Assembly (NCBI GenBank): GCA_028684065.1
Contig: JAQUGO010000001.1
Coordinates: 248,001-312,000 of the forward strand
Length of the DNA: 64,000 nucleotides
Direction of reading: 5' to 3'
Source of the DNA: Sulfurospirillaceae bacterium
Lineage (GTDB): Bacteria > Campylobacterota > Campylobacteria > Campylobacterales > Sulfurospirillaceae
The translations under genes and the position numbers were made by a program. Below, one piece after another: positions 10,720-49,777 of this stretch. The notes below the pieces were generated by a model. The model did no database searches. It was not told the DNA's origin and saw only the letters and a program-made list of their open reading frames with translations. Every line of letters begins with the position of its first letter. Position 1 is the first letter of the stretch.

Positions 10720-11331
10720 TTAGAGCTTAGTGATATTTTGGAGCTTAACATACATCATCGCTGTCATAATGGCATCATTAATCGCATCATGCTTCCCAAA
10801 AATAGCAAGACCTAAATCCTTCATGATGACATCAAAACGTAAATCAATAGTTCCTTCAGGTATAAATTTTATCTTTTTATCATGATAGATTCCTGAGACT
10901 TCGATTTGTTTATTGGGAAGAGTGATACCTAAAAGTGGTTTAAGATATTTATTCACCATTTTCACATCAAATTCAAGGTAATAGCCTACTAGTGGTCGAG
11001 AGCCGATGAAATGTAACAACTGAATAATTGCATCATTAGGTTCACAACCATGAAGTAAATCAATATTACGGATTTGATGAATTTTAATGCTCGCCTCTTT
11101 GATATCTCGGCTTGGTTTTAAAAATATCTCAAATTTTTCAGAAGTGAGTATTTTATTGCCTTTTATTTTGACCGCACCGATAGAGAGTATTTCATCTACT
11201 TTAGGATTAAGCCCCGTTGTTTCAGTATCGAATACCACTACCTCATCTGCAGGGGCATCCTCAAATAAAAAAAGAAATTTTTCATCTTTAAGTCTATTTT
11301 TATTGCGATTGGCAAAGAAAGATTGAAACAT
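10720..11331 (-). CDS. DnaQ-like 3'-5' exonuclease (DEDDh)
   Basis: 203 residues. Exo I is VVFDTETTGLN with Asp35 and Glu37, Exo II lies around LVGYYLEFDVKMVNK and Exo III in GKHDAINDAIMTA with its His and Asp, so all four metal-binding acids and the general base are present. These enzymes proofread or trim DNA or RNA. It is more probably a stand-alone exonuclease than the replicative epsilon subunit, because it directly follows the DUF294 gene (stop and ATG two bases apart), a pairing seen in many proteobacteria. Confidence 0.85.
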   Translation of the reverse strand: MFQSFFANRNKNRLKDEKFLFLFEDAPADEVVVFDTETTGLNPKVDEILSIGAVKIKGNKILTSEKFEIFLKPSRDIKEASIKIHQIRNIDLLHGCEPNDAIIQLLHFIGSRPLVGYYLEFDVKMVNKYLKPLLGITLPNKQIEVSGIYHDKKIKFIPEGTIDLRFDVIMKDLGLAIFGKHDAINDAIMTAMMYVKLQNITKL

Positions 11332-11332
11332 T

Positions 11333-33611: not shown

Positions 33612-34006
33612 AGTATCACCTCTATTTCTTCTTTAAAGACTGTTTTGTCTTTGATTTTAAATGACTTTAGTTCAGGCAACGCCTCGGCTAATGAGACGAT
33701 AAGATAACTGATATTAGGGTCATAGGCCAATTTTATATCTTCAACGGAAGGACGTGCTGGCGTTAGCGGATGAGAATGATACATTCCTATCAACCTTAAG
33801 CCTTCGTTTTGCGTTTTTTTAAACGCGTCAAATTGTTCTTGTGGGTCAAAACTAAAATGCTCAGGACTATTGTCGGTATTTTTCATACGAATGGCATAGG
33901 TTACCTCATCGTTAAGTCCTGCTAAATACCCACATGCCTCAATTGGATTTTGCTCTAGAGCATGTGCTACTATGTCATCATAGACGCTTTGAGGTATCTT
34001 TATCAT
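33608..34006 (-). CDS. hcyD: JAMM/MPN metalloprotease, HcyD-like
   Basis: 132 residues, M67 family. The zinc site is complete: Glu23 (NPIEACGYL), His77 and His79 (YHSHP), Ser87 and Asp90 (PSVED). In Wolinella HcyD removes the terminal alanine from the sulfur carrier HcyS to expose the glycine that is activated; the equivalent Mec+ acts on CysO in mycobacteria. The adjacent hcyS ends in GGGA, precisely the substrate required. It overlaps hcyF and the sulfite reductase by 4 bases. Confidence 0.88.
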   Translation of the reverse strand: MIKIPQSVYDDIVAHALEQNPIEACGYLAGLNDEVTYAIRMKNTDNSPEHFSFDPQEQFDAFKKTQNEGLRLIGMYHSHPLTPARPSVEDIKLAYDPNISYLIVSLAEALPELKSFKIKDKTVFKEEIEVIL

Positions 34007-34809
34007 TTTTTCATCTCACATACAACAGCTTCATAATCCCGTAATTTTGTGATACCCTCACCCGAGCATACACGACACTTTGGATTTTTCTTAAAATTGA
34101 TGTTTCTAAAATTCATTGTTTTTGCATCAAAACTAAGTAATCTATTAAAGAGCGGTTCACCCGCACCTACAATGTATTTAAGGGCTTCTGCGGCTTGAAT
34201 GGTTCCCAGCATACCTGCAACGGCGCCTAAAATACCTGCACTTGAGCATGTGGGAATGGCATTTGTAGGTGGTGGACTATCAAATACACACGCGTAACAT
34301 GCACTCTCATGAGGTTTTATGGTCATGGTTTGCCCACCAAAACGTAAAATTCCCCCATGTGAATAAGGCTTATTAGCAATAACACACGCATCATTAATCA
34401 GAAACTTCGCTGCAAAATTATCTGTCCCATCAATAATAAAATCATAGTGTTCTACAATTTCCAAGATATTGGAAGCATCCAACATCGTTTGATAGACAGT
34501 GACTTTCACATTAGGATTAATCGCCTCCATCTTCGCTTTAGCCGAGAGAACTTTGGGCACACCCACTTCTGCGGTTGTGTGAATGACTTGGCGTTGAAGA
34601 TTGCTTAAGTCCACCAGATCGCCATCAACGATACCAATTTCACCCACACCTGCGGCGGCTAGATACAGTGCTACAGGAGAACCAAGTCCGCCTGCACCGA
34701 TGACCAAAACTTTGGCATTTAAAATCTTCTCTTGCCCTTCAATACCGACATCTTCTAGGATGATGTGCCGTGAGTATCTTTCTAACTCTTCATCACTAAA
34801 CTCTCTCAC
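34003..34809 (-). CDS. hcyF: ThiF/MoeB/E1-like carrier-activating enzyme, HcyF-like
   Basis: 268 residues, Rossmann adenylyltransferase: VIGAGGLGSPVALYLAAAG for ATP, DLSNLQRQV, and DGTDNFAAKFLINDA. The zinc pairs are CYAC near residue 170 and CRVC near residue 245, and TCSSAG gives the potential catalytic cysteine. It adenylates the C-terminus of a small carrier for thiocarboxylation. It cannot be told from MoeB or ThiF on motifs alone; the hcyS and hcyD neighbours decide. Confidence 0.88.
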   Translation of the reverse strand: MREFSDEELERYSRHIILEDVGIEGQEKILNAKVLVIGAGGLGSPVALYLAAAGVGEIGIVDGDLVDLSNLQRQVIHTTAEVGVPKVLSAKAKMEAINPNVKVTVYQTMLDASNILEIVEHYDFIIDGTDNFAAKFLINDACVIANKPYSHGGILRFGGQTMTIKPHESACYACVFDSPPPTNAIPTCSSAGILGAVAGMLGTIQAAEALKYIVGAGEPLFNRLLSFDAKTMNFRNINFKKNPKCRVCSGEGITKLRDYEAVVCEMKK

Positions 34810-35012
34810 GCGCCACCTCCCATAAAGTATAAAAAGTTAAGGACATCGCCTTCTTTAAGAATAGTTTCCGCATACTCATCTTGTTTCAAAAACGTATCAT
34901 TCAGTTGAATTGAAACCATTTCAGGCATCTCCACATTTTCAACTACTAATAATTCAGTAATATTAAGACCTGTATTGACTTCTTTTATCTCGCCATTTAT
35001 TGTTATTTGCAT
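34806..35012 (-). CDS. hcyS: Sulfur carrier protein with terminal Ala, HcyS-like
   Basis: 68 residues, ThiS/MoaD-like beta-grasp. The C-terminus is MGGGA: a GG tail blocked by Ala68. ThiS and MoaD end in GG, so the extra alanine must be removed first, which is the described reaction of HcyD on HcyS in Wolinella succinogenes. As a thiocarboxylate it would give sulfur to MetY. It begins with MQITINGEIKEV and follows cysN after a 14-base gap. Confidence 0.87.
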   Translation of the reverse strand: MQITINGEIKEVNTGLNITELLVVENVEMPEMVSIQLNDTFLKQDEYAETILKEGDVLNFLYFMGGGA

Positions 35013-35026
35013 TGTTACTCCTGATG

Positions 35027-36358
35027 TTAATTAAATCTATGGGGGAAATGCTTACGCAACAACATAAACAATTCATCCTCAAAACTCTCTTCTGGCAAAA
35101 TATCTTGCCCACTCTCTTCAAAAATATCCGTGACAATGCCACCACCGGCGATGTCATAACCATCGACGATGACAAAACGACCAAGCTTTTGATTCTCGCT
35201 AAAATATTCCATCGCCAAAGCATCATGACTTCTAAAAACTACACTCGCAGCCTCATGGCGTGCCACTTCTGGCTCATTGGCCTTATCTAACGTATCACCA
35301 TCAATCACGCGTTTGATAGATTCAAGATAAACCGTACTTTTAGCACTGCCTATTTTGATCTTATAAGCCTTGTTTTTTTGTAACGCTTTAGCACCTAACC
35401 AAAAGATATTGGCTTCAAAACGATGCGCTACATGGGGTGGTTTTTGCGATGCTTTGGCAACAACTTCTCCGTTTTTAACGTAAATCTGCGTTTGAAGGGT
35501 AAAACCTATCGCCTCAGCCACTTTTGCGTTACTTTTTACAGATGTATTAAAACTCTCAATACTTGCAACGGTTGAGTGTTTCAAGGAAGGGTAAAACACC
35601 ACATCATCCCCAATACTTATTTCACCATTGGTAATCGTTCCTGCATAAATGCGCCTATCATCTCCATCGGCTGTAAACTTATACACATCTTGCAAAGGCA
35701 TTCTAAAATCTGCAATTTCAGGGTTTTGAGTCACTTTAAAGTTATCAAGTATTTCTAAAACGGTCGGCCCTTTATACCACGGTGTTAGCTCAGAATGGGC
35801 TATTAGATTGACACCATCACGCGCGGCTATTGGGATAAATACATCGCTTTTGACTCCTAAAGTCGCTAAGTATTCAGTGTATTCTGCCTTGAGTGTTTCA
35901 AAAGAGGCTTCACTAAAATCCACTAAATCCATCTTATTGACTACAATGGCCACTTGTTTGATTCCCAACATCGATAAAAGCATTCCATGACGCTTGGAGT
36001 TTTCAGCAACACCCTCTTTGGCATCAATTAACAAAAGTGCCGCTTCTGCTCGAGATGCCCCACTGATCATATTTTTTAAAAACTCAATATGACCAGGAGC
36101 ATCGATGATGATGTACTCTCTTTGTTTAGAGTTAAAAAAGACCCTCGCACTGTCTATCGTAATCCCTTGTTTTTGTTCATCCGCTAAAGCATCGAGTAAA
36201 AAAGCATATTCAAAAGGACGTGCATTTTTGGCACACATTGCTTTCACACTTTCGAGTTTACCTTGTGGAAGTGAATGGGTATCGGCAAGCAATCTTCCGA
36301 TTAACGTGCTTTTACCATGGTCAACATGACCCGTTATGACTATATTCATGCGCTCCAT
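35027..36358 (-). CDS. cysN: Sulfate adenylyltransferase large subunit (GTPase)
   Basis: 443 residues, EF-Tu-like GTPase. [15 protein letters not shown] is the P-loop, [12 protein letters not shown] the G3 motif and NKMDLVDF the G4 motif; the rest is two beta barrels. Using GTP hydrolysis it drives CysD to make APS from sulfate and ATP. It is not fused to an APS kinase, consistent with the CysH type in this operon, which uses APS directly. One base overlap with cysD. Confidence 0.94.
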
Positions 36359-37236
36359 TACATGTACCCCTCTTTCCTTAATGCTTCGAGTGTTCCACCA
36401 CCCTCTTTATCTTGTGCTCTGCCTGAGCGCTCTGCAATATCTTTAAACTTGCCACTGGTAAGTTCGGTGATAATTTCTGCAGGATTTTGAGCCTCTGAAT
36501 CCACCGGTGCGGTACAAGGAAAACAACCAAGGGAGCGATAACGTTTGCCACTACCATTGTTAAAATACAATGAGATAATAGGTATCTTCTCTTGTTCGAT
36601 ATATTCCCAAATATTAAGCTCTGTCCACTCTAAAAGAGGATGAATACGCACATGCGTTTGCGGTGCAAAGTCTGTTTTGTATTGATTCCACAATTCTGGT
36701 GGTTGCGTACTGGCATCCCATTCACTCTTCTCATCACGGGCTGAGAAAACCCGTTCTTTGGAACGACTTCCCTCTTCATCAGCACGCACACCTACGATAA
36801 CGCCTGTATACGCTTCACCATTTTTTTCTTCTTCCCATGTACCAAGATGTGGATTGTATTTACGTCGTGCCCATGTGCCATCAAGCGTATGTTTCAAAGC
36901 ATCGCTTTTAAGCTTTTTACAACAACTAAGTCTATCAAGCCCATCCACATAAGTTTCACCTCGTGCTAAGGCTTCTTTATTTTGCCCCACCACTAAGTTA
37001 AGATTCCACTCTTTAGCGATTTCATCGCGGTAACGAATCATCTCTGGGATTTTAAACGCCGTATCAATATGCACCAAAGGATAAGGAACATGTCCAAAAA
37101 AAGCTTTTCGTGTCAGCCACAATAAAACGGTGCTATCTTTTCCAATGCTCCAAAGCATCGCTAAATTGGGAAAGTTACGATACGCTTCTCGTAAAATATA
37201 CACACTTTGTGCTTCTAATTTTTCTAAATGATTCAT
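36358..37236 (-). CDS. cysD: Sulfate adenylyltransferase small subunit
   Basis: 292 residues, PP-ATPase family. Visible: [15 protein letters not shown] (the PP-loop), [29 protein letters not shown] and [17 protein letters not shown]. It makes APS with CysN. The gap of about 285 bases to the preceding cysH holds three tandem 92-bp repeats, the only long gap in the operon. Confidence 0.95.
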
Positions 37237-37251
37237 GATTGTGCCTCTCTA

Positions 37252-37527
37252 TTTCATTTCTATCACGCATCAAAAGCAAAGCTCTTGATACTACGCTAAC
37301 GCTAAGTTTGCCTCGGCGGCATGCCCACGCTTCGCTTTTACTTTTTCATTTCTATCACGCATCAAAAGCAAAGCTCTTGATACTACGCTAACGCTAAGTT
37401 TGCCTCGGCGGCATGCCCACGCTTCGCTTTTACTTTTTCATTTCTATCACGCATCAAAAGCAAAGCTCTTGATACTACGCTAACGCTAAGTTTGCCTCGG
37501 CGGCATGCCCACGCTTCGCTTTTACTT
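37252..37527. repeat. Three tandem copies of a 92-bp repeat between cysH and cysD
   Basis: Units at 37252-37343, 37344-37435 and 37436-37527, starting TTTCATTTCTATCACGCATC and ending CGCTTCGCTTTTACTT; they are practically identical and G+C richer than their surroundings. The period is not a multiple of 3, so the array is not coding. Each unit contains a long-range inverted repeat, AAAAGCAAAGC and GCTTCGCTTTT with one mismatch, about 45 bases apart, and can fold. It overlaps the 3' end of cysH by a few bases. Confidence 0.9.
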
Positions 37528-38208
37528 TACATGTAAACCGCACTCTTTGTGCTCTGGATTTTCCCACCACCAACGACCCGCTCTGATATCTTCACCCTCC
37601 GCTATTGCTCTGGTACAACACGAACAGCCTATGCTTTGAAAGCCTTTGGCGTACAAAGCATTTTGGGGAATATGATGCTCTTGCATGTAATGCACCACAT
37701 CTGCATCACTAAAAAAAGCTAAAGGGTTGAACTTTTGCATCTGATGAACCGCATCAAACTCTTGCATCACCGTTTCGCTTCGCGTGATTGATTGCGCTGC
37801 TCGAATACCGCTAATCCAGCCATCTTTGCCTTTGAGTGCTTCCTTTAGCGGTAAAAGTTTACGTACATGACAACACTCTTTACGCAAAGAACTATCATCA
37901 AAGATTCCCCGCTCCCCTACTTTCGTTTCCAATGCCCTTATCGCATCACTATTGGCACTAAAGGAGTGAATAGTTAGATCAAAAAAAGCTTCTATCTCTT
38001 TTTGGTACACTAATGATTGCTCAAAAAGCTTGTAGGTATCTAGCGTAAAAACACTCACATGAATACCCGCTTGTTGCGCCAATGAAAGAGCGATAGCATC
38101 TTCATTTTGATGGCTGAATGCTACGCTTACATGTAAGCCTTTTTCTTTTACATATAAACGTAATACTTCAAGTGCTTCAGAGACTTTTTCATCATAGCCT
38201 TTACTCAT
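37522..38208 (-). CDS. cysH: APS-type phosphoadenylyl/adenylylsulfate reductase
   Basis: About 228 residues from ATG 38208 (MSKGYDEKV), which overlaps the stop of the DUF2061 gene in ATGA; a longer frame is less likely. The iron-sulfur pattern of APS reductases is visible: KECCHVRK and, further on, GCSCCTRAI. These cysteines distinguish APS reductases from PAPS reductases that lack the cluster. FALDTYKLFE-like motifs (FTLDTYKLFE) are the nucleotide region. It reduces APS to sulfite and AMP, so no APS kinase is needed. A TTTACATGTAAA palindrome contains the stop codon. Confidence 0.92.
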   Translation of the reverse strand: MSKGYDEKVSEALEVLRLYVKEKGLHVSVAFSHQNEDAIALSLAQQAGIHVSVFTLDTYKLFEQSLVYQKEIEAFFDLTIHSFSANSDAIRALETKVGERGIFDDSSLRKECCHVRKLLPLKEALKGKDGWISGIRAAQSITRSETVMQEFDAVHQMQKFNPLAFFSDADVVHYMQEHHIPQNALYAKGFQSIGCSCCTRAIAEGEDIRAGRWWWENPEHKECGLHVK

Positions 38209-38432
38209 ATCTGATACTCCGGTTCGATTTTTTTTCTTCCGTACTCTATCTTGTTCCATGCACGCTCATGAAAATAGTACAGAGCCGTCTTTGTGACCAA
38301 TTCAAAAGCACCAATGGAAACAGCCGCAAGTGGATTTCCGGTCACGATATAACTGATGATAATCGTATCGACAGTTCCTGTTGCACGCCACGAAAGTGCT
38401 TTAAGAATGCTTCGTTTTTTTTGTTCAATCAT
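38205..38432 (-). CDS. DUF2061 small membrane protein
   Basis: 75 residues. SILKALSWRATGTVDTIIISYIVTGN and the helix with TKTALYYFHERAWNKI are the DUF2061 signature, with two hydrophobic segments. Genes of this family are often first in sulfate-assimilation operons next to cysH, but the function is unknown. It overlaps cysH by 4 bases and starts the operon; its promoter is about 25 bases upstream. Confidence 0.85.
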   Translation of the reverse strand: MIEQKKRSILKALSWRATGTVDTIIISYIVTGNPLAAVSIGAFELVTKTALYYFHERAWNKIEYGRKKIEPEYQI

Positions 38433-38650: not shown

Positions 38651-40024
38651 ATGGTAGAATCACAAAGCCCCCTATACGATGAATTTAAGACCATCTTAAA
38701 TACTATCGATCCTGACCGCGTTAAAGAGCTCTTATCGTATATGCGCACCGAAGCCATTAACTTTAATCTCTTTAAAAATGGCTCTTTTATAGAGCGAAAA
38801 TTTCCTTTTGATATTATTCCTCGTATTGTTTCTGCGAGTGAATTTGATTATTTGGATAAAGGCATTCAACAGCGTATTCACGCCTTGAATCTTTTTTTAG
38901 AAGATATCTATAGTGAGCAAAAGATATTAAAAGATGGCATTATCCCTTCCGATTTTGTATTTGCTTCAAAAGCATTTTTGCCTGAATTTATGAATACACC
39001 TGTTTCAAAGAACATTCGTGTTCATATCAGTGGTATTGATCTTGTTAAAAATAGTGTGGGCGATGGATGGGTTGTTTTAGAAGATAATTTACGTGTCCCA
39101 AGTGGTGTCAGCTATCCTCTTTCGATTCGCAAACTTACCCGTAAAGTCTTTCCTGAATTTTTTGAAAAATTACCGATACAAAAAGTTTATGATTATCCTC
39201 AAATTCTTAAAAAAACAATGGATTATGTTAACACTGGTGGTATCAATGTTGTCTTAACACCAGGTCGTTATAACTCTGCATTTTACGAGCACTCTTACCT
39301 TGCTAAAGAAAGTGGTGCAGTCTTTGCCACAGGCGAGGATTTGTTTGTTGAAAATGATATCCTTTACTTCAAAACTTTTAATGGTAAACGTTCTCGTGTT
39401 GGCGCTGTGTATCGCCGAATGGATGATGATGCACTTGATCCTAAGTTTTTTCATGCTGAATCATTGATTGGCGTACCCAATATCACGCAAGTCTACCGAG
39501 CAGGCAATATTGGCTTGATGAATAGCATTGGAAATGGCATCGCCGATGATAAGGGTATTTATTATTTTGTTCCTCAAATGATTCGTTACTATATGGGTGA
39601 AGAGCCGATTTTACAAAATGCCCCAACGTATTTGGCCTTTTTTGAGAAAGATCGCCAGTACATTATCCAAAATCTTCGTACATTGGTTATTAAAGATGTC
39701 GCAGAAGCAGGTGGCTATGGGGTTGTCTTTGGTTCACAACTTTCTAAAAGTGAGCGTGAACATATGAAAGAGGCTATTTTAAAAGAACCAAGACGTTTTA
39801 TCGCACAAGAAGTTATCGAATTTTATGATATTGAATGCCGTAATGATTTAGGACAACTCATACCTCATAAAGCTGACCTTCGCATGTACTCTTTATATGG
39901 TGAAGAGATCGTCGTTTGGCCAGGAGGGTTAACACGTTATGCTATGGACCCTAAAAGCTACATCGTCAACTCCAGCCAAGGTGGCGGATTTAAAGACACT
40001 TGGATTTTAAAGGAGAGCAAATGA
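38651..40024 (+). CDS. Circularly permuted ATP-grasp type 2 protein (DUF404/DUF407)
   Basis: 457 residues, matching the N-terminal part of the 829-residue protein on the other arm. Seen are the LSIRKLTRKVFPEF region, TPGRYNSAFYEHSYLAKE, the GNGIADDKGIYYFVP loop, and YGVVFGSQLS, with acidic metal ligands near EFYDIECRNDLG. ATP-grasp ligases join a carboxylate to an amine through an acyl phosphate. This class is predicted, mainly from genome context, to make small peptides or tag proteins. No substrate is known. Overlaps the next gene in ATGA. Confidence 0.83.
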   Translation: MVESQSPLYDEFKTILNTIDPDRVKELLSYMRTEAINFNLFKNGSFIERKFPFDIIPRIVSASEFDYLDKGIQQRIHALNLFLEDIYSEQKILKDGIIPSDFVFASKAFLPEFMNTPVSKNIRVHISGIDLVKNSVGDGWVVLEDNLRVPSGVSYPLSIRKLTRKVFPEFFEKLPIQKVYDYPQILKKTMDYVNTGGINVVLTPGRYNSAFYEHSYLAKESGAVFATGEDLFVENDILYFKTFNGKRSRVGAVYRRMDDDALDPKFFHAESLIGVPNITQVYRAGNIGLMNSIGNGIADDKGIYYFVPQMIRYYMGEEPILQNAPTYLAFFEKDRQYIIQNLRTLVIKDVAEAGGYGVVFGSQLSKSEREHMKEAILKEPRRFIAQEVIEFYDIECRNDLGQLIPHKADLRMYSLYGEEIVVWPGGLTRYAMDPKSYIVNSSQGGGFKDTWILKESK

Positions 40025-40680
40025 TTCTTATTTCACCACAAACAGCTGAGCACCTTTTTTGGATAGGACGCTATATCCAACGTGCTGAGAGCATGTCACG
40101 TTTAGTCATTGATATCTTTGATAAAATTATTGATCATAACCCTCAAGAGAGTCATAATTTTTATGCGAAACTTGGCCTGACTCTTGATTATCAAAACAAT
40201 CAAGAGTTTCTTCGTCAAGCTACTTTTGATCTTGAGTTTGTCAGCCTTCTAAGCATCGTCAATAATGCACGTGAAAATGCCGTATTAGCCCGTGCATCGC
40301 TTCCAAACAGAATGTTTAGCCGAATCAATGGTCTTTATCTTCGTTATCAAATTGCTAAAGATGAACCTAAAACATCTATCTTTTGGTTGGAGTCAACCTT
40401 ACAAGAGTTGGATGCTATTTGGGGAAATTTGGAATTAAATATTGCACACATGCATGAAAAAGACTTAATTCAATTAGGACGTATTATCGAGAAAATGGAT
40501 CTTAATATTCGTCTTTTTGACAGCCTAGAAGCAACAGCATTGGATGTTGCCAGACTCAATAATTTACTTGCAAAATTAGGTCAATATAACGCCAAAGTTT
40601 CATTACATTCAAGCGACCCACTCAAAACCTTACATACTATCAATTCTGTGTATAAAACAATGGTTGAGGTCCATGAATGA
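40021..40680 (+). CDS. Alpha-E domain protein (DUF403)
   Basis: 219 residues from ATG 40021 (MILISPQTAEHLFWIG); the alternative start upstream lies inside the ATP-grasp gene. All-helical, with the family marks AEHLFWIGRYIQRAESMSRL and NARENAVLARASL. Alpha-E proteins always travel with CP ATP-grasp proteins and are thought to be their partners. A homologous domain is fused to the C-terminus of the 829-residue protein. The stop overlaps the next gene by 4 bases. Confidence 0.83.
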   Translation: MILISPQTAEHLFWIGRYIQRAESMSRLVIDIFDKIIDHNPQESHNFYAKLGLTLDYQNNQEFLRQATFDLEFVSLLSIVNNARENAVLARASLPNRMFSRINGLYLRYQIAKDEPKTSIFWLESTLQELDAIWGNLELNIAHMHEKDLIQLGRIIEKMDLNIRLFDSLEATALDVARLNNLLAKLGQYNAKVSLHSSDPLKTLHTINSVYKTMVEVHE

Positions 40681-41627
40681 TAGAAGAGTTTTTTAACGTT
40701 AAATTACCAGTTGATGAGCACCTCATCTTAAAACGTAACCGATTTTTAACGCCTTTACAAGAACTCAATGGTAAGCGTATTAGTATTATCACCGGTATAC
40801 ACGGTGATGAAATAGAAGGGCAATATGTCTGCTATTTACTCGCAAAATGGCTGAATGAAAACCCTGATAAAATAAAAGGCATCATAGACATCTACCCTTC
40901 TATGAATCCTATGGGCATTGATAGCATCACGAGAGGATTCCCTTTTTACAATGTAGATATCAATCGTACTTTTCCAGGTAAAACATCTGAATTTTTACCA
41001 GGGCAAGTAGCTAATGCTATTGTAGAAGCTATTAAGGGAAGCGATTATGCGATTGACATTCATTCAAGTAATATCTTCTTACGTGAACTGCCTCAAGTGC
41101 GTATCAGTAAATCCAATGCCAAAGAGCTTGTCCCTTTAGCGCAGAAAATGGGGATTGATTTTATCTGGGTCCATGATGCTGTGACAGTCTTAGAATCGAC
41201 TTTTTCACACACGATGAATACACTAGGAACAAAAACTCTTGTTGTTGAAATGGGTGTTGGCATGCGCATTACTAAAGAATATGGTGAAAATCTCACCGAA
41301 GGTATTTTAAATCTAATGGCACAACTCGACATTATAGATCGCCCTTTGTCTTTAAGCAAGCCCTCTTTTGTTTCAACCATTAATGCTGAAGTACATTTTA
41401 TCAACTCCCCCTGTTCAGGTGTTTTTATACCTACTCTTGAGCATAATGTTACAGTGGCACAAGGAGAAAAATTAGGAGATATTATCGACCCTCTTTTAGG
41501 TGAAATTAAAGCAACACTTTTAAGCCCATGTGATGGACTCCTTTTTACCATTAGAGAATATCCTGTTGTTTATGAAGGTTCTTTAATCGCTCGTATTTTA
41601 GAAGATACCAAAGAGGAAAAAGCATGA
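40677..41627 (+). CDS. Succinylglutamate desuccinylase/aspartoacylase-like zinc hydrolase
   Basis: 316 residues, M14-related AstE/AspA. The zinc site is intact: GIHGDEIEG (His and Glu of HxxE) and DIHSSNIFL (His). The catalytic Glu region reads TLVVEMGVGMRI. The C-terminal half, from about residue 235, is a beta-rich domain common in AstE/AspA-like proteins. It removes acyl groups from amines or cleaves a peptide, so may undo or trim what the ligase makes. Overlaps the next gene by 4 bases. Confidence 0.82.
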   Translation: MIEEFFNVKLPVDEHLILKRNRFLTPLQELNGKRISIITGIHGDEIEGQYVCYLLAKWLNENPDKIKGIIDIYPSMNPMGIDSITRGFPFYNVDINRTFPGKTSEFLPGQVANAIVEAIKGSDYAIDIHSSNIFLRELPQVRISKSNAKELVPLAQKMGIDFIWVHDAVTVLESTFSHTMNTLGTKTLVVEMGVGMRITKEYGENLTEGILNLMAQLDIIDRPLSLSKPSFVSTINAEVHFINSPCSGVFIPTLEHNVTVAQGEKLGDIIDPLLGEIKATLLSPCDGLLFTIREYPVVYEGSLIARILEDTKEEKA

Positions 41628-42574
41628 GAGAAGAGATTTTATTTGAAATTACCTCGCTAAGCCGTGAACCTATGCGCGTCAAAGCCTTTAAATTTGGCAA
41701 AAAAGATGCAACACCAAGTTGTGTTATTGTAGGGCCAATGACAGGAGATGCGATAGATCAGCTTTGGATAGCCTCTCGAATGGTTCGCTTTTTACGCCAA
41801 AAAGAGCTCGAAAATCCTTCCTTTATTCTTGGTGAAATCGTTGTTGTTCCTACGGCTAATACCTATTCATTCAATATGGGAAAGTCATTTTGGCCTTTGG
41901 ATAACACCGATATTGATGTCATGTTCCCAGGCTATGAAAAAGGTGAGACAACACAACGTATTGCAGCAAGACTTTTTGAAAAAACCAATAATTTTGACTT
42001 CGCTATTTTGCTCGAAGCGAGAAAAGATCACGCTGAATGCAAACCCTATGTCAGCCTTTTAGCCAATGGCGCTGAAGATGTGGATGATGCCCGTGCTTTT
42101 GGTTTAGATTTTATTCATATCAAAGATGAAAGCCCTATTGATACAGTTTCTATCAATTATAACTGGAAAATATGGAATGCAAAATCTTTTTCGATTATTT
42201 CAGGGAAAAAAGGCGAATTACGGAAGAATGACGCCAACAAAGTATTTGATGCCATAGTTCGATTTCTCTCAAAGCATAAAATCATCGACTTTCCTATCTT
42301 TGAAGGCTCTATTGGAAATGTTGTTACGTATGACAATATCGAAATTATCAAATCTTCTGCAGCAGGACTTTTTGATACTTTAGTGCATGTTGGGGATCGG
42401 GTGGTACATGGACAACCATTGGCAAGAATTTATAACACGCTTGATGGAACCCTTATGCAGACTATTATCGCACCTTTTGAGGGCATTATCTCGTGTGCCT
42501 ATGATTACCCACTCATTTTTCAAAATGCTATTGCATTTCGGATTATCAGACTTGAAGATACACAGTTACCGTAA
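41624..42574 (+). CDS. Degenerate AstE/AspA-like paralogue, probable pseudoenzyme
   Basis: 316 residues, the same length and layout as the gene before it and probably a tandem duplicate. Where that one has GIHGDEIEG, this one has GPMTGDAIDQ; where it has DIHSS, this one has ILLEARKDHA; where it has VEMGVGM, this one has ISGKKGE. So the visible zinc-binding HxxE and second His are lost. The C-terminal domain (IEIIKSSAAGLFDTLVHVGD) is kept. It may form a heterodimer with the intact partner. Confidence 0.75.
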   Translation: MREEILFEITSLSREPMRVKAFKFGKKDATPSCVIVGPMTGDAIDQLWIASRMVRFLRQKELENPSFILGEIVVVPTANTYSFNMGKSFWPLDNTDIDVMFPGYEKGETTQRIAARLFEKTNNFDFAILLEARKDHAECKPYVSLLANGAEDVDDARAFGLDFIHIKDESPIDTVSINYNWKIWNAKSFSIISGKKGELRKNDANKVFDAIVRFLSKHKIIDFPIFEGSIGNVVTYDNIEIIKSSAAGLFDTLVHVGDRVVHGQPLARIYNTLDGTLMQTIIAPFEGIISCAYDYPLIFQNAIAFRIIRLEDTQLP

Positions 42575-42588
42575 AAAAATATTATGAA

Positions 42589-42618
42589 CCGCGCACAAAA
42601 AGCACTGAAGATGCGCGG
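42589..42618. terminator. Stem-loop after the plus-strand operon
   Basis: CCGCGCA, 16 bases, TGCGCGG: seven perfect GC-rich pairs just after the stop at 42574. Unusually GC-rich for this region; no T run follows directly. Confidence 0.5.
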
Positions 42619-42645
42619 GCACTCTACCGAAAAGAACTTAGCATG

Positions 42646-42670
42646 AGCGTAATTTTTAGATCTTTACGCT
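42646..42670. terminator. Second stem-loop between the convergent operons
   Basis: AGCGTAA, 11 bases including TTTTT, TTACGCT. It lies 10 bases before the stop of the minus-strand transglutaminase (42680), placed to end that transcript. Confidence 0.5.
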
Positions 42671-42679
42671 AAAAGCATA

Positions 42680-43585
42680 TTACGAATAAAATATAGAATC
42701 CTCTCGTCGCACATCCACCATAATAGATAAATCACTTTTACCACTACTGAAAACAACCCCTTTTAGAGGTGAAATATCATTATAATCTCGTCCTGAGCCT
42801 AAAAGGATATGTTGTGATGTAGGTATAACATTATTTGTTGGATCAAGGCCAATCCAGCCAGCATTTGGGATATACAGTGCGAACCATGCATGTGAAGCAT
42901 CAACGCCAAAAAGCTTTTTTTCACCCTCTTTTGGTATCGTTTCAATATATCCACTCATATAACGAGCGGGTAATCCAATCGAACGAAGAGCCGCTATAGC
43001 AAATTGTGTAAAATCTTGGCAGACTCCTTGTTTGGCATCAAAAATATCTTCAATGGGTGTCATTACATCGCTAAAGCCTGAAACAAATTTAAAATCTGCA
43101 TAGATTCTGTTCATAAATTCATACGCTGCTTCAAACAAATCTCTATAAGGAGAAAATGACTCCAAAGCATACTCTTGAATTCGCTTTGATGCTTTAGGAA
43201 TAAATTCAGACTCTGGCATAAAAAGTTTGACAGACGTATCGTTGCAAGCAAAACCTGATAATATTTCTTGAGCATGAGCATACGTCACACTTTTTGAGCG
43301 AACATCAGCAATATGTGTTGCTAAACGATCAGGAAATATTTCAACTTTTGAATGACCTGTAAGTGCTAGTGATTTGTGGGCTTCACGGATGAGTATATGG
43401 CTGTTATAATTGCCAAAAATATCGACAAAATCACTTTGTTCATATACCGTAGGTTCTGTTTGCATCGAAAAGCTTAAAAGCTTTTGAAAACGTGTATTTT
43501 TGGGTTTGAGCCGCGCAATATTATGACTAAAAGTTACGATACTTTCGTAGTCAAATTCAGTTTTGTGATAAATGGTATAAATCAT
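42680..43585 (-). CDS. Transglutaminase-like cysteine peptidase with bact-transglu N-domain
   Basis: 301 residues. The N-terminal third is the beta-rich bacterial transglutaminase-N domain (MIYTIYHKTEFDYES). The catalytic triad is present: Cys189 (GVCQDFTQF), His232 (ASHAWFALY) and Asp248 (GLDPTNN). In this setting it may cleave or transfer peptide bonds made by the ATP-grasp ligase. It is the last gene of the minus arm, 2 bases after the fused protein. Confidence 0.87.
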   Translation of the reverse strand: MIYTIYHKTEFDYESIVTFSHNIARLKPKNTRFQKLLSFSMQTEPTVYEQSDFVDIFGNYNSHILIREAHKSLALTGHSKVEIFPDRLATHIADVRSKSVTYAHAQEILSGFACNDTSVKLFMPESEFIPKASKRIQEYALESFSPYRDLFEAAYEFMNRIYADFKFVSGFSDVMTPIEDIFDAKQGVCQDFTQFAIAALRSIGLPARYMSGYIETIPKEGEKKLFGVDASHAWFALYIPNAGWIGLDPTNNVIPTSQHILLGSGRDYNDISPLKGVVFSSGKSDLSIMVDVRREDSIFYS

Positions 43586-43587
43586 CG

Positions 43588-46077
43588 TTACTCATCATAA
43601 TGTGAAAAATAAGTTTTGCACAATTCAGTAGAACATTCTGCAAATAAATCCGAAAGTGTAGAGAGCATCGTATCAAGTTTTGTATAACTTTGCTCATCTT
43701 CTAACTCCATGACATCGCTTAGTTTCGTAAGCTTTAACAATGAATACGCTTTAAACATGGGGGCTTCATGCGCTGTTAAATAAGGTTTTGACTTGGGCAG
43801 CGTTTTAAACTCTCCTAATAATTTATTCGTAATATAGCTTAGTGACTTTGGAAATTGTGGATTAAACACTAAAAACTCTATCACATTCTCCAACTGTAAA
43901 GCACTTTTATATTGTGTGCGATAAGCATTAAAACTCTCACTCGAGCTTAATATCCCTTCTAAAAGGTCATAAGCAACCGATTTATCCAACTTGAAGCAGA
44001 GCATTGAACGCGCTTTTGAGATAAACAATAAAGCATTTTCAATCGTATACCCAATTTCAAAAAGGGTGAGCCCCTGCTCTTTATACATACTCTCATCCAC
44101 TAATTCTTTATACGCTGTAAAATAAATCAATACTTTATCTAATTCACTGAGTACCGCTCTTTTAGAGTTATTTTGTTTGCGAACAAAGATAAACCACTCT
44201 TTTTGCAATTTATCAAAAATTTTTGCCGATTCGACTGCAAGTAAATTTTTGACGGCAACATTAGCATTAGCCAGCATCCCAATCGTATACGTAAGAGAAC
44301 CTGTTTTATACCTATCTCTAATGACAGAGAGTATTTCATTCATCGGGTTTAAATGCAATTTTTCTTGCATTGTCTCATCTAAAAAACCAGGATACGTCAT
44401 CGTTAGATGCGTCAAGGCATTTTGTAACATACGTTGTGAGTCGTTTGTTTCCATCTCTTCATAACGATAGGTATTGGCCATGTTTTTGAGTAAATATCGC
44501 AAAAAGCGTGAGGTGGTAATTGAGCGTGCAAGATAACGCCCGAGCCAAAAGAGATTTTCCGCTTTAAGGGTTGACATGTGTCTTAGTGATGTTTCAACGT
44601 AAGGTGCATTTTTGAAGATATTAGCGTTATCATTTCTTTTATCCGTACCTAATATCCACAAATCTTTGCTCGTTCCCCCTCGTTGTGATGACACCAGTAA
44701 CGAATCTTTACTGGCTGAAACACGCACCAAGCCACCATTCATCACCGTGTAATTTTCATCGCGTTTGAGACTATAGGCACGAATAACAGCATTGCGTGGT
44801 TCTATTTTTTCACTGGTATAATTAGGAATTGTTGAAAAACTAATCTCTTCTTGCGCTGCATAAAAGTTAGGACTTTTGATGATGGTTTCTCTAAGCTCGG
44901 CCAGTGCTTCAAATGATAAATTACGGCATAAATATGTCTTGACCGATTCTGTTCTATCAATTTTTTTAACAATAAGCGTGCTTAAATTTTCAAGTACATA
45001 GGCTAACTCACTGGGTTGACCACACCACCATGTCGCAATTTGTGGCAGGATGAGCTCTTCATTTAAAAAATACTGTGCAATATTTTCCATAAAAGGATTA
45101 AGCCCTATATTTTCTAAAATAGCACTTCCAATAGGGTTTACCATGATTAAATTATCTTGTCGCATGGCATCAACCATGCCAGGTACTCCTAGTTTGGAGT
45201 CATTGCGTAGCTCTAGGGGATCGCAAAATTTATCATCTACTCTTCGAACAAGTGTATTAATAGGTTTAAGCCCACTGAGACTTTTGAGCCAAAGAGCACC
45301 ATTTTTACAGAGTAAATCATCTCCTTGGACTAAATTAGTCTCTAAAAAACTACTCAAATAAGAGTGCTCAAAATAGGTCTCATTATGAGGTCCTGGTGTT
45401 AATACTGCTACTTTTGAAATATCACCATCACTCAGTTTATGTAAGAGTGTTTTAAACTCTTCCACAAATAAAGAAAGCTTTTTAACCTCAATAGCAGGGT
45501 AAAGCTCTTTTGCTATATTATTCAGCGTGAGGCGATTTTCAACACTATACCCCAAACCTGAAGGTGCTTGGGTACGATCACTTATGACCCATAGCTTTCC
45601 ATCAGGACCTCTAGCCATATCTACGGCATAAAAATAAAGATTGAAGTTATCTTTGAATCCAAAATTATAAACTTCACTGCAAAACCCTTTATGTCCGTAA
45701 ATCACTTCTGCAGGGATGATATTATCACGGATGAGTTTTTGCTCACCATACAGGTCTCTAAAAATAAGATTCAAAAGGGTTGCTCGTTGCTTAATCCCTT
45801 TTTTAACCTCTTTCCACTCATCCCCTGTGATAACAAAAGGAATAGGATCAAGCCTCCACGGACGATTTCCATTGCCTTCTGGGTTATTATAAATATTGTA
45901 GGTAACACCATTTTCTTCTAAGTGCCAATCAATCTCAGCTTGTCTGCTACCTAACTCTTCTAACCCTTTATTCTGGATACTTTCATATATGCCTCGCCAA
46001 TGCTCTCGTAGATTTTTATTCTCATCGAACATTTCATCAAAAGAAGCAACTGATTTGTAATTTTCAAATAAACCCAT
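43588..46077 (-). CDS. CP ATP-grasp type 2 fused to Alpha-E
   Basis: 829 residues. Residues 1-490 are the circularly permuted ATP-grasp (LTPGPHNETYFEHSYLSSF, IMVNPIGSAILENIG, RGGTSKDLWILG); the rest is Alpha-E, starting around MSTLKAENLFWLGRYLARS. The two parts match the separate proteins of the plus arm, so the cluster has both a split and a fused version. It is 3 bases from the giant upstream. The C-terminal helical region is more divergent. Confidence 0.85.
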   Translation of the reverse strand: MGLFENYKSVASFDEMFDENKNLREHWRGIYESIQNKGLEELGSRQAEIDWHLEENGVTYNIYNNPEGNGNRPWRLDPIPFVITGDEWKEVKKGIKQRATLLNLIFRDLYGEQKLIRDNIIPAEVIYGHKGFCSEVYNFGFKDNFNLYFYAVDMARGPDGKLWVISDRTQAPSGLGYSVENRLTLNNIAKELYPAIEVKKLSLFVEEFKTLLHKLSDGDISKVAVLTPGPHNETYFEHSYLSSFLETNLVQGDDLLCKNGALWLKSLSGLKPINTLVRRVDDKFCDPLELRNDSKLGVPGMVDAMRQDNLIMVNPIGSAILENIGLNPFMENIAQYFLNEELILPQIATWWCGQPSELAYVLENLSTLIVKKIDRTESVKTYLCRNLSFEALAELRETIIKSPNFYAAQEEISFSTIPNYTSEKIEPRNAVIRAYSLKRDENYTVMNGGLVRVSASKDSLLVSSQRGGTSKDLWILGTDKRNDNANIFKNAPYVETSLRHMSTLKAENLFWLGRYLARSITTSRFLRYLLKNMANTYRYEEMETNDSQRMLQNALTHLTMTYPGFLDETMQEKLHLNPMNEILSVIRDRYKTGSLTYTIGMLANANVAVKNLLAVESAKIFDKLQKEWFIFVRKQNNSKRAVLSELDKVLIYFTAYKELVDESMYKEQGLTLFEIGYTIENALLFISKARSMLCFKLDKSVAYDLLEGILSSSESFNAYRTQYKSALQLENVIEFLVFNPQFPKSLSYITNKLLGEFKTLPKSKPYLTAHEAPMFKAYSLLKLTKLSDVMELEDEQSYTKLDTMLSTLSDLFAECSTELCKTYFSHYDE

Positions 46078-46080
46078 GCG

Positions 46081-49000
46081 TTATTTTGTCCACTTTCGTC
46101 TTAAATCTAATGTGTGCGGATACTCAATACTTTTTGGCAATTCTTGGAAATGAAACACTTTCTTTTCAGGATGAGGATGCACGATAACCGCCCGTTTAGC
46201 ACCATTAATACCCACTAGACTGTGCTCAACAATGGATGCAGAAACAGGCTCAACATCGCCTTGCGTGTGGTTAAAATCCCAAAAGCGGTTAATTCTGCGT
46301 GACTCAGCTTCATAGCTGTTCACAGGGAATGAATCATAACTCCTTCCACCAGGATGTGAAACAAAGTAGCTCATACCACCAATAGAGCGATTGTTCCATT
46401 TATCGACTACATCAAAAACTAATGGGGTATCTACTTTTATGGTTGGATGCAAGGCAGACCATGGATTCCACGCTTTGTATTTTACCCCTGCAACAAATTC
46501 TCCTTCAATACCTGTGGGATTTAAAGGAATTGCTACACTGTTGCATGTAAGGGTGTAACGCTCAGGTGTAAAGTTTGTGACTTTCACTTGCACACGCTCT
46601 AACGATGAATCCACATAACGTGCCGTTCCTTGTGAACTGCTCTCCTCACCTAAAACATTCCAAGGCTCAATGGCGGCACGAAGCTCTAAATGAATATTTT
46701 CCACCGTTGCCATACCGTACAATGGAAAACGAAATTCAAAGAAAGGGTCAAACCAATCCAAATTAAAAGGATAACCTTCGTTATTTAAAAAATCGACTAT
46801 ATCACGTAAATCCTCTTTAACATAATGCTCCAATAAAAATTTATCGTGCAGTTGTGTTCCCCATCTGACCAATTTATGCTTATATGGTTTCTTCCAAAAG
46901 AGCGATACTAATGTGCGTACCAGCAACATTTGCATCAGTGACATTTGAGAATGTGGTGGCATATCAAAGGCTCGTAATTCTAAGATACCCAGTCTTCCTG
47001 TGCTTGAATCTGGAGAGTAGAGTTTATCGATACAAAATTCTGAACGATGTGTATTACCCGTAATGTCGGTTAACATGTGACGGAAAAGTCTATCGGTTAG
47101 CCAAAAAGGCACTTCTTCATCTTCAGGTAATTGTCCAAAGGCAATTTCTAACTCATACAAGTTTTCCAATCGTCCTTCATCCACACGTGGTGCTTGCGAT
47201 GTTGGCCCAATAAAAGTGCCTGAGAAAAGATACGAAAGACCTGGATGATGTTGCCAAAATGTAATCAAACTACGCAATAAATCAGGTCGTCTTAGCAATG
47301 GGCTATCACTTGGTTTCATCGCACCAATAGTGACATGATTTCCCCCACCTGTGCCCGTATGTTTACCATCTAACATAAACTTCTCAGTCCCAAGTCGTGA
47401 CGCTCTTGCATCAGCATACAATGTCAAAAGATTATCTGTAAGCTCTTTCCAAGACTGTGCTGGTTGGATATTGACTTCAATAACACCAGGGTCTGGTGTC
47501 ACTTTGATGCGGTCAATCCGTAAATCATGTGCGGGTTCATAACCTTCCAAGATGACTTTCATATCTAATTTCTCAGCCACAGCTTCGATGCTTGCAATCA
47601 AATCCAAAAAGGCTTCAGTATCGTTAAGCGGAGGCAAGAAAAGATACAATTTACCTTCACGTACCTCTGAACACATCGCTGTTCTTACAAACGTTGCATA
47701 ACGATTTTCATGCGTCGTTTTAGCATCCATTTGGGCACATCGCTTCTGAGCATTTTCGATATAATCCCCAAGTTCAGGTGTTGATGCAAATAAATCAGGC
47801 TCAAAATTAAGGGCAAGCTCGACATGTGGTTTTTCTACCAATGAGCCCAATGGTAAGCGTAATCCTAATGGGGAATTTCCAGCTGCTAGATACAAATAAC
47901 CTCGTCTTAGTTCCCATCCAGAAGTCATCCAACGTGTTTTGTTAAATCCTAGAGGTAAGACATATCCAATGGGAACATCCAATCCTTGAGATAAGACTTT
48001 AGCGATGGTTTGTCGCTCAAGTGGGTCTTTAAGATTGTACTTCATAGGGTCTATATCGATAGGAAGTTCAGATTCTTTAATGATATAATACAATGGGTCT
48101 TCATAGGCCTCAATGATATTTTTCTCACTGACACCCAAGGTTAAAGAAAGAGTTTCTAAAAATTTTTTGGCATCTTCGGTAGTGTAGCTATAACTTGCAT
48201 TCATATTGGCCAGTAAAGCATGATTATTCCAAATCGGCTTACCATCTTTACGCCAAATAATCGACGTTTGCCATCTTGGAAGTGGCTCCCCTGGATACCA
48301 CTTACCTTGCGCATAATGTAACATGCCACCCTTGGCAAAAGAGTTCAAAAGTTTTCGAGAAAGGATATCAGCCAATTTACGCTTATGCTCACCATCAGCT
48401 TTAGTATTCCACTCATCTGCTTCCATATCGTCAATGGAGACAAAGGTAGGCTCTCCTCCCATGGACAGCCTGACATCATTGCCTACTAGCTCTTTATCCA
48501 CTTCAAAGCCTAATTGATAAATTGCGTCCCACTGATCATCGCGGTATGGTTTCGTAACACGCGGGGATTCAAAAATACGTGTAACGGTATTTTCATAGAA
48601 AAATTCCGTTTCGCATTTATCACTCATCCCTTCAATCGCGTGAGCACTGTCATACGAAGGTGTACATGCAAGAGGGATATGCCCTTCACCAGCAAACAAT
48701 CCACTCGTGGAATCAAGTCCAACCCAACCAGCACCAGGAATATAAACTTCCGTCCATGCATGTAAATCTGTAAAATCGGCTTCAGGACCACTAGGTCCAT
48801 CAAGGGATTTAACATCGGCTTTAAGTTGCACCAAGTAGCCCGAAACAAAGCGAGAAGCAAGTCCTAAATGACGCAATACCTGTACAAAGAGCCATGCATA
48901 ATCCCGACAACTCCCGAGCTTATTCCCCAGTGTCACTTCGCATGTCTGAACACCTGGATCTAGGCGAATCGTGTAATTTAATGCGTTGTATATTTGTGTG

Positions 49001-49446
49001 TTTAAATAGACTAAAAAATCAATAATGGTTTTTTGGCTCAAATCAAGGTTCGCCATAAAATCTTTCAAAAGTTTACCATCATCAGTGATTTCAAGATAAG
49101 GAGCAAGCTCTTTTTTTAAATCATCTTTATAGCTAAAAGGAAAATCTTTAGCATAATCATCCACAAAAAAATCAAAAGGATTAATCGTAATCAAATCGGC
49201 AATAATTTCTACTTCGATGCTTAATTCTTTGGTTTTTTCAGGAAAAACAAGGCGCGCAAGATAGTTTCCAAAAGGGTCTTGTTGCCAATTAATAAAATGA
49301 TTATCTGGCTTTATTTTTAGTGAGTATGCTTCTATTGGAGTCCTGCTATGAGGGGCAGGACGAAGTCTTATAATATGTGGGGAAAGTGAAATGAATCTAT
49401 CATACTTATACGCCGTTTTATGTGATATAACTACTTTGAGTGACAT
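46081..49446 (-). CDS. Transglutaminase fused to DUF2126
   Basis: 1121 residues. The transglutaminase domain has Cys180 (KLGSCRDYAW), His229 (LHAWTEVY) and Asp245 (GLDSTSG), so the triad is complete. DUF2126 fills the rest from about residue 300, with LSMGGEPTFVSIDD, GRLGILELRAFDMPPHSQMS and a beta-rich end. Some authors compare DUF2126 with glutamine-synthetase-like COOH-NH2 ligases, but I cannot confirm that by eye. It is the first gene of the minus arm, with an extended -10 element upstream. Confidence 0.87.
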   Translation of the reverse strand: MSLKVVISHKTAYKYDRFISLSPHIIRLRPAPHSRTPIEAYSLKIKPDNHFINWQQDPFGNYLARLVFPEKTKELSIEVEIIADLITINPFDFFVDDYAKDFPFSYKDDLKKELAPYLEITDDGKLLKDFMANLDLSQKTIIDFLVYLNTQIYNALNYTIRLDPGVQTCEVTLGNKLGSCRDYAWLFVQVLRHLGLASRFVSGYLVQLKADVKSLDGPSGPEADFTDLHAWTEVYIPGAGWVGLDSTSGLFAGEGHIPLACTPSYDSAHAIEGMSDKCETEFFYENTVTRIFESPRVTKPYRDDQWDAIYQLGFEVDKELVGNDVRLSMGGEPTFVSIDDMEADEWNTKADGEHKRKLADILSRKLLNSFAKGGMLHYAQGKWYPGEPLPRWQTSIIWRKDGKPIWNNHALLANMNASYSYTTEDAKKFLETLSLTLGVSEKNIIEAYEDPLYYIIKESELPIDIDPMKYNLKDPLERQTIAKVLSQGLDVPIGYVLPLGFNKTRWMTSGWELRRGYLYLAAGNSPLGLRLPLGSLVEKPHVELALNFEPDLFASTPELGDYIENAQKRCAQMDAKTTHENRYATFVRTAMCSEVREGKLYLFLPPLNDTEAFLDLIASIEAVAEKLDMKVILEGYEPAHDLRIDRIKVTPDPGVIEVNIQPAQSWKELTDNLLTLYADARASRLGTEKFMLDGKHTGTGGGNHVTIGAMKPSDSPLLRRPDLLRSLITFWQHHPGLSYLFSGTFIGPTSQAPRVDEGRLENLYELEIAFGQLPEDEEVPFWLTDRLFRHMLTDITGNTHRSEFCIDKLYSPDSSTGRLGILELRAFDMPPHSQMSLMQMLLVRTLVSLFWKKPYKHKLVRWGTQLHDKFLLEHYVKEDLRDIVDFLNNEGYPFNLDWFDPFFEFRFPLYGMATVENIHLELRAAIEPWNVLGEESSSQGTARYVDSSLERVQVKVTNFTPERYTLTCNSVAIPLNPTGIEGEFVAGVKYKAWNPWSALHPTIKVDTPLVFDVVDKWNNRSIGGMSYFVSHPGGRSYDSFPVNSYEAESRRINRFWDFNHTQGDVEPVSASIVEHSLVGINGAKRAVIVHPHPEKKVFHFQELPKSIEYPHTLDLRRKWTK

Positions 49447-49594: not shown

Positions 49595-49777
49595 ATGGAT
49601 GCTATTAGTAGCAATGTCAGCACAGATATTAGTATCTATGCAATGAAAAAGGCGATCGAGTCTCAAGGAGATGTGATCTTGAAGGTACTTGAGAGTGCTC
49701 AAACGCCTCAAACGACTCCTTCACAATCAGGTTTGGCATCTGAGGGTATTGGCCAAACACTGGACTTAAGAGCCTAG
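49595..49777 (+). CDS. YjfB family putative motility protein
   Basis: 60 residues. ISSNVSTDISIYAMKKAIESQGDVILKVLES is typical of YjfB, a short helical protein found near flagellar or motility genes; the function is unknown. It has a good AAAGGAG site and a terminator follows. No flagellar gene is adjacent. Confidence 0.78.
   Translation: MDAISSNVSTDISIYAMKKAIESQGDVILKVLESAQTPQTTPSQSGLASEGIGQTLDLRA

Follow-up and report, generated by a model that had tools for sequence, protein, structure and literature searches.

The seven-gene locus at positions 38651-49446 of a 64,000-nucleotide stretch of a Sulfurospirillaceae genome (contig JAQUGO010000001.1; the whole stretch is here called the window) raises the question of which bond is made and cut by two adjoining sets of ATP-grasp, Alpha-E, transglutaminase and AstE-like genes, and of why there are two sets. 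Here it is proposed, with slightly better than even confidence, that the locus encodes a form of the ATP-grasp/Alpha-E/transglutaminase amide-conjugation system without Anbu, acting as a write-and-erase module that is probably used under nitrogen limitation. The basis of this proposal is the gene order, the conservation and loss of active sites, the replacement of Anbu by a pair of AstE-like proteins and the loss of a transglutaminase gene in company with the second operon. The chemistry of all steps, as well as the cooperation of the two operons (the plus and the minus arm), is predicted from sequence.

Gene content of the locus

38651..40024, plus strand: circularly permuted (CP) ATP-grasp, active-type ligase (Pfam CP_ATPgrasp_2, 442.9 bits; 3n6x, E 2.4e-119; LEDN, ADDK, GGYG and DLR by motif alignment)
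40021..40680, plus strand: Alpha-E, short subtype, 219 aa (PF04168, 83.5 bits, profile positions 4-186 of 294)
40677..40680, plus strand: ATGA junction of Alpha-E and AstE, the site of the plus-arm transglutaminase gene in relatives, deleted here
40677..41627, plus strand: AstE/AspA-like zinc amidohydrolase, AstE (PF24827, 73.1 bits; H42, E45, H129, R86, N96, R97, E191)
41624..42574, plus strand: AstE', catalytically dead AstE paralogue by its residues (PF24827, 25.5 bits; own invariant motifs)
42575..42679, no strand: gap of 105 bp between the convergent operons
42680..43585, minus strand: transglutaminase-like protein, C189/H232/D248 (PF08379, PF01841)
43588..46077, minus strand: fusion of a pseudo-ATP-grasp (residues 80-454) and Alpha-E (505-824), by Pfam; catalytic motifs lost
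46081..49446, minus strand: transglutaminase (C180, H229, D245) fused to DUF2126, a putative amidoligase (PF09899, 1273 bits; PF08379, PF01841)

All seven open reading frames (ORFs) described by an earlier reading of the DNA made from the sequence alone (the sequence-only reading) were present in two convergent operons, and the Pfam families support its logic of ligase, partner, hydrolase and transglutaminase. The Pfam scores are far above cut-off except for AstE', which barely exceeds that of PF24827 (25.5 against 25 bits). The coupling overlaps claimed for the plus arm were found at its three junctions, each an ATGA stop/start overlap; the true start of Alpha-E is the ATG at 40021, preceded by aaggag and overlapping the ATP-grasp stop, and the listed TTG at 40000 is an over-extension. 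Spacers between the minus-arm genes are 2-3 bp. A chance origin of the locus is unlikely, as full-length, high-scoring families recur in order across phyla. The gap between the operons contains a CCGCGCA/TGCGCGG stem, predicted on both strands and ordinary when compared with shuffles (z -1.3), and a promoter/terminator scan gave sites no more numerous than in shuffled sequences.

The plus arm as a reduced five-gene operon

Relatives of the plus arm were sampled as 80 loci found with an AstE' profile, drawn from at least 577 confirmed candidates. Neighbourhood comparison gave a fixed gene order of ATP-grasp, Alpha-E, transglutaminase, AstE and AstE', found in Lachnospiraceae, other Clostridia, Bacteroidales, Spirochaetota, Sulfurospirillum, Sulfuricurvum, Sulfurimonas, Arcobacter and Thiovulum, with the domains of the Pseudobutyrivibrio operon confirmed by Pfam. 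Judged by this order, the window's plus arm is the five-gene operon with its transglutaminase gene cleanly gone. The relatives have a CP ATP-grasp, Alpha-E and a transglutaminase in one operon; the window has no transglutaminase in the plus arm and two in the minus arm. The sequence-only reading had listed the four plus-arm genes correctly and had overlooked that they are an Anbu-less five-gene operon minus its transglutaminase. Alpha-E was found in nine of 150 Campylobacterota genomes, most of them having both arms side by side.

The plus-arm ATP-grasp has the LEDN, ADDK, GGYG and DLR motifs all intact. Its only relative of solved structure carries the annotation of putative glutathionylspermidine synthase, and no relative was found in E. 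coli at the DNA level. For the ATP-grasp of the Yersinia Anbu operon, release of phosphate from ATP has been reported (PMC6376114). In the ATP-grasp tree, the enzymes of the AstE type form one supported clade apart from the Anbu type. This clade includes the enzyme of locus L018 (9482-11513, genome G122), where ATP-grasp, Alpha-E and the minus arm remain and the plus-arm transglutaminase has disappeared together with the two AstE genes.

An active and an inactive AstE in place of Anbu

The sequence-only reading had noticed an intact zinc site in one of the two AstE-like proteins, and this holds across relatives. In AstE, H42, E45, H129, R86, N96, R97 and E191, which make up the zinc site, the substrate clamp and the catalytic Glu, are invariant in 82 of 82 copies, whereas H42, H129 and E191 are present in none of the 82 copies of AstE', so that its zinc His pair and catalytic Glu are gone. 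AstE' has motifs of its own (W90, D93, T95, MxPGY, GETTQRIA and YNWxxW), at least 95% conserved in the 82 copies from four phyla, and no complete AstE-type operon among those examined has AstE without it. By this conservation, AstE' is a pseudoenzyme partner in an obligate live/dead pair and no decaying duplicate; it may serve as a structural subunit or substrate holder.

AstE shares the HxxE...H zinc site, the DxNR clamp and the catalytic Glu with the AstE/AspA/DoeB zinc amidohydrolases and resembles 2qj8, 3cdx and 6twl/6twm. It is at most 25% identical to characterised members, far under the DoeB cut-off, and differs from them in being always paired with an inactive paralogue. The characterised relatives found by the searches have small N-acyl amino acids as substrates.

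Anbu has been proposed as the ancestor or an intermediate of proteasomes, and Iyer et al. (2009) are said to have predicted the ATP-grasp/Alpha-E/transglutaminase/Anbu operon (the Anbu operon) to be a peptide-tagging system. In this known form of the system the last component is Anbu, which has the proteasome fold (PMC6376114, PMC5666114). The plus arm shares with it orthologous ATP-grasp, Alpha-E and transglutaminase families, a tight operon and a hydrolase gene as fourth component; it differs in that the window's operon and genome lack Anbu, the hydrolase slot being filled by the zinc AstE and the dead AstE', and in having an Alpha-E of the short subtype (about 220 aa against 310-330 aa). 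An Anbu gene elsewhere in the window's genome was considered and dropped, as the sole PF00227 protein is HslV, adjoining HslU. Likewise, a PF00227 search found Anbu in none of 33 genomes with an AstE-type operon: 25 gave no match, and each of the other eight gave a single match that resembles HslV in score and length (E 1e-21 to 1e-28). The same profile recovered Bacteroidota Anbu at E of about 1e-6, inside ATP-grasp/Alpha-E/Anbu operons. Alpha-E was present in 96 of 247 Bacteroidota genomes, and among those 96 a true AstE' occurred only in the seed genome, whose Alpha-E is of the short subtype; nearly all the other Alpha-E match the profile end to end. Going by these gene contents, the AstE pair occupies Anbu's slot in the operon. 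Gene order in the Bacteroidota Anbu loci varies, being ATP-grasp, Alpha-E, Anbu and transglutaminase in L171, L172 and others, with the transglutaminase before Anbu in L175.

The AstE type is, as far as the open-access literature shows, an unrecorded variant of a known system, and it bears on the question of what Anbu does. No paper on an AstE-Alpha-E operon was found in that literature, which did not cover Iyer et al. (2009), where the AstE partners and the dead fusion may already be noted. The Anbu operon resists functional assignment; its hydrolase is inactive on standard protease substrates, Anbu having had no peptidase activity in published assays (PMC6376114). In a large group of gut and rumen anaerobes and Campylobacterota, this ligase core is combined with a zinc hydrolase that is unrelated to Anbu and of far better-understood chemistry, acting on an amide beside a free carboxylate, which narrows the bond that the system would make and offers a tractable enzyme for finding it. 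Since an exo-acting fold for small substrates takes the place of Anbu, the replacement suggests that the task common to both is to cleave a specific conjugate and not bulk proteolysis. It is tentatively suggested, as one possibility among several, that Anbu and AstE/AstE' are interchangeable solutions to one task, the hydrolysis of the specific amide made by ATP-grasp/Alpha-E. If so, Anbu in its native operon would be a conjugate hydrolase and not a protein-degrading compartment, and the AstE pair would be its exo-acting substitute, in which a pseudoenzyme is an obligate subunit.

The minus arm and a possible reason for two sets

The order of transglutaminase-DUF2126, fusion and transglutaminase was also found on plasmids of Azospirillum, Shinella, Caballeronia and Enterobacter. 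These Pseudomonadota cassettes match the minus arm in their three genes, in gene order and in the dead ATP-grasp motifs; the difference is that in Campylobacterota the cassette is joined by the AstE-type plus arm, usually convergent. The Enterobacter cassette (locus L107) is preceded by a solo ATP-grasp and a full-length Alpha-E. On this E. roggenkampii IncFII plasmid (p1_120063, L107 6597-15794), the five genes ATP-grasp, Alpha-E, transglutaminase-DUF2126, fusion and transglutaminase lie near arsC between IS110, IS6-family and IS26 transposases, and these flanks on a plasmid indicate that the cassette has been mobilised.

The ATP-grasp half of the fusion has lost LEDN (replaced by xxDR or xxHR), ADDK, the GGYG loop and the D of DLR in eight of the eight fusions compared, and solo enzymes retain all of them. 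This loss spans Campylobacterota and Pseudomonadota, including a 17-sequence alignment, and by these motifs the fusion is a conserved pseudo-ATP-grasp. The metal ligands of E. coli glutathionylspermidine synthase are Asp, Glu and Asn, to which the ExN of LEDN would correspond. The sequence-only reading had taken both ATP-grasps for ligases, which stands for the plus-arm enzyme and fails for the fusion; missing ATP-grasp active-site residues, named there as what would speak against the reading, were found in the fusion only. Together with the live/dead AstE pair, the fusion gives clean examples of conserved pseudoenzymes in an uncharacterised pathway.

The likely ligase candidate of the minus arm, if this arm ligates at all, is DUF2126. 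The Pfam label of the family (PF09899, matched at 1273 bits) is putative amidoligase, a point overlooked in the sequence-only reading, which had its families and triad right; by its Pfam name and the abstract of Iyer et al. (2009) DUF2126 is reportedly a circularly permuted glutamine-synthetase-like ligase. The two complete Cys-His-Asp triads noticed earlier (C180/H229/D245 and C189/H232/D248) are invariant among relatives, and similarity to 3isr was found. The AlphaFold model of transglutaminase-DUF2126 had a mean predicted local distance difference test (pLDDT) score of 45.7, its alignment being too shallow, and Foldseek matched only the transglutaminase half (3isr). The fusion model (mean pLDDT 58.8, alignment too shallow) was unusable for geometry, and Foldseek added only 3n6x.

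Of 47 plus-arm transglutaminases, 42 have the catalytic Cys; in the other five it is replaced (by Ser in three, by Arg in two), and these five are from Sulfurospirillum loci that all have the minus arm. Among Campylobacterota, the minus arm accompanies none of the four intact plus-arm transglutaminases and 34 of the 35 that are dead or absent (Fisher p 6e-5, uncorrected for kinship), three of the 34 calls resting on minus-arm genes at contig ends. For Sulfuricurvum and Arcobacter loci without a plus-arm transglutaminase, a minus arm was predicted elsewhere in the genome, and a whole-genome search found DUF2126 in all except locus L046. Outside Campylobacterota, DUF2126 was found in none of 28 tested genomes, and the plus-arm transglutaminases keep the Cys where seen. 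In the window's genome, the only Bact_transglu_N proteins are the two of the minus arm. Many genomes are metagenome-assembled genomes (MAGs), in which gene absence is weaker. Read together, these sequences make it seem, without proving it, that the minus arm takes over the transglutaminase step and that the arms share this step. The question of why there are two sets, left open by the sequence-only reading, is partly answered: they are different subtypes brought together in Campylobacterota, seeming to share one step.

Probable link to nitrogen limitation

In P. putida, nitrate as compared with ammonium raised expression of the ATP-grasp gene PP_2688 by log2 3.99 and of the Anbu gene PP_2685 by 4.44, and in a reporter test the PP_2688 promoter, but not that of PP_2685, responded to nitrogen depletion (PMC8050072). 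Genes for ATP-grasp, Alpha-E, transglutaminase and large transglutaminase in B. cenocepacia were down 6-9-fold in an ntrC mutant (PMC5491218), and domains of the system track urea-use domains in marine metagenomes (PMC3597751). Additionally, the AstE-type operon of Prevotella sp. P6B1 follows, at a distance of 10 bp, the gene for the ammonium transporter AmtB (PF00909; L102, 4737-6224). Several Lachnospiraceae have a RelA/SpoT-domain gene within 16-31 bp of the five-gene operon (downstream in L063 at 10960-11949, upstream in L080, and also in L064, L089 and L091). No extra operon gene was conserved across phyla, the RelA/SpoT and AmtB neighbours being lineage-specific. From the expression of relatives, the module of the window organism is probably used under nitrogen limitation.

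Proposed mechanism and alternative explanations

ATP-grasp enzymes form amides via an acyl phosphate, and transglutaminase-fold enzymes transfer or hydrolyse acyl groups. In the proposed module, the plus-arm CP ATP-grasp, helped by Alpha-E, would activate a carboxylate with ATP and join it to an amine. The AstE/AstE' pair would hydrolyse an amide beside a free carboxylate and in this way trim the product or undo it; the zinc catalyst would be AstE, and AstE' would be an inactive subunit that has a structural role or holds the substrate. An acyl-transfer or amidase step would fall to an enzyme of the transglutaminase fold; in this genome that step could come only from the minus arm, which may also add a second putative ligase (DUF2126-transglutaminase), a pseudo-ATP-grasp/Alpha-E scaffold and another transglutaminase.

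Several observations weigh against this proposal. The AstE type is known from genes alone, and we know of no function for the Alpha-E family. Some lineages can do without the AstE pair, since no AstE is left in locus L018 beside its ATP-grasp, Alpha-E and minus arm. In one MAG (L046) the plus-arm transglutaminase and the minus arm are both missing. For the link between transglutaminase and minus arm, no more than two independent contrasts could be drawn from the ATP-grasp tree, both in the expected direction and too few for a phylogenetically corrected test to reach significance. The gene adjoining the five-gene operon differs between lineages, and the NtrC control is reported for relatives outside Campylobacterota.

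As to the product, a low-molecular-weight amide conjugate (a nitrogen store, or a polyamine or amino-acid conjugate) is quite possible, if short of an even chance. It would be comparable to glutathionylspermidine, which is made by a CP-type ATP-grasp and cleaved by a cysteine amidase. The annotation of the solved ATP-grasp relative, the small substrates of the AstE relatives and the nitrogen-limitation control of related operons all point this way. The likeness to glutathionylspermidine synthase/amidase lies in an ATP-grasp relative of the same shape and a papain-fold cysteine enzyme able to undo the amide; here, however, the genes are separate, with extra Alpha-E and AstE partners, and the resemblance is by annotation and fold, with no sequence match to GspS itself. 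No metabolite is known, and a single small-molecule step leaves Alpha-E and the second ligase unexplained. Rather more doubtful is protein tagging, in which the module would put a peptide or amino acid tag on proteins and AstE/AstE', like Anbu, would remove it, as in polyglutamylation by RimK/RimB or with the TTL ligases and M14 deglutamylases of eukaryotes. Tagging is what was predicted in print for the Anbu operon (see the summaries in PMC6376114 and PMC5666114), and the pairing of a ligase with an eraser of carboxypeptidase fold has precedents: RimK/RimB and RloA-C also combine an ATP-grasp ligase with a peptidase undoing or trimming its product (PMC12239564), although their peptidase fold is unrelated, their ATP-grasp is non-permuted and Rlo has a membrane-bound inactive transglutaminase. 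The small N-acyl amino acid substrates of the AstE/AspA/DoeB relatives, the lack of peptidase activity of Anbu and the absence of a conserved small tag-like ORF near the operons all speak against tagging.

Two further alternatives concern parts of the proposed module. AstE' could be an active enzyme whose catalytic site is new and formed by residues of its own (W90, D93, T95, GETTQR and YNWxxW), the conservation of which is unlike that of a decaying gene; this is improbable, since its zinc ligands and catalytic Glu are all gone, no other set of metal-binding or nucleophilic residues can be made out, and the invariant residues equally fit an interface or substrate-binding role. The arms could also be two independent neighbour systems, the minus arm serving a separate purpose and the plus-arm transglutaminase having been lost by coincidence. 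Each arm is found alone (the plus arm in the Campylobacterota genomes G146 and G060, the minus-arm cassette on Azospirillum and Shinella plasmids), genome G044 has the arms on separate contigs, and only two independent contrasts back the linkage. However, the co-occurrence described above, the five Sulfurospirillum genes kept with their catalytic Cys lost, all beside a minus arm, and the adjoining of the arms in many genomes make independence fairly unlikely.

Other features of the neighbourhood

Two further ideas on the function of the locus were dropped. PADLOC defence models matched none of the seven proteins, which removed an anti-phage reading, and a clustering of small ORFs near the operons gave only antisense or lineage-specific clusters, which removed a peptide substrate encoded nearby. 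The locus adjoins sulfur-assimilation genes on the minus strand (window 31326-38432), which encode a PAPS reductase domain, sulfate adenylyltransferase-like subunits and a nitrite/sulfite-reductase-like protein. A DUF2061 ORF at 38205-38432, also on the minus strand, was missing from the list of ORFs of at least 90 aa. Divergent from the transglutaminase-DUF2126 gene, at 49595-49777 on the plus strand, there is an uncharacterised, Pfam-negative ORF of 60 aa (MDAISSNVSTDISIYAMKKAIESQ...) with a good upstream aggag, reminiscent of YjfB-like small motility proteins.

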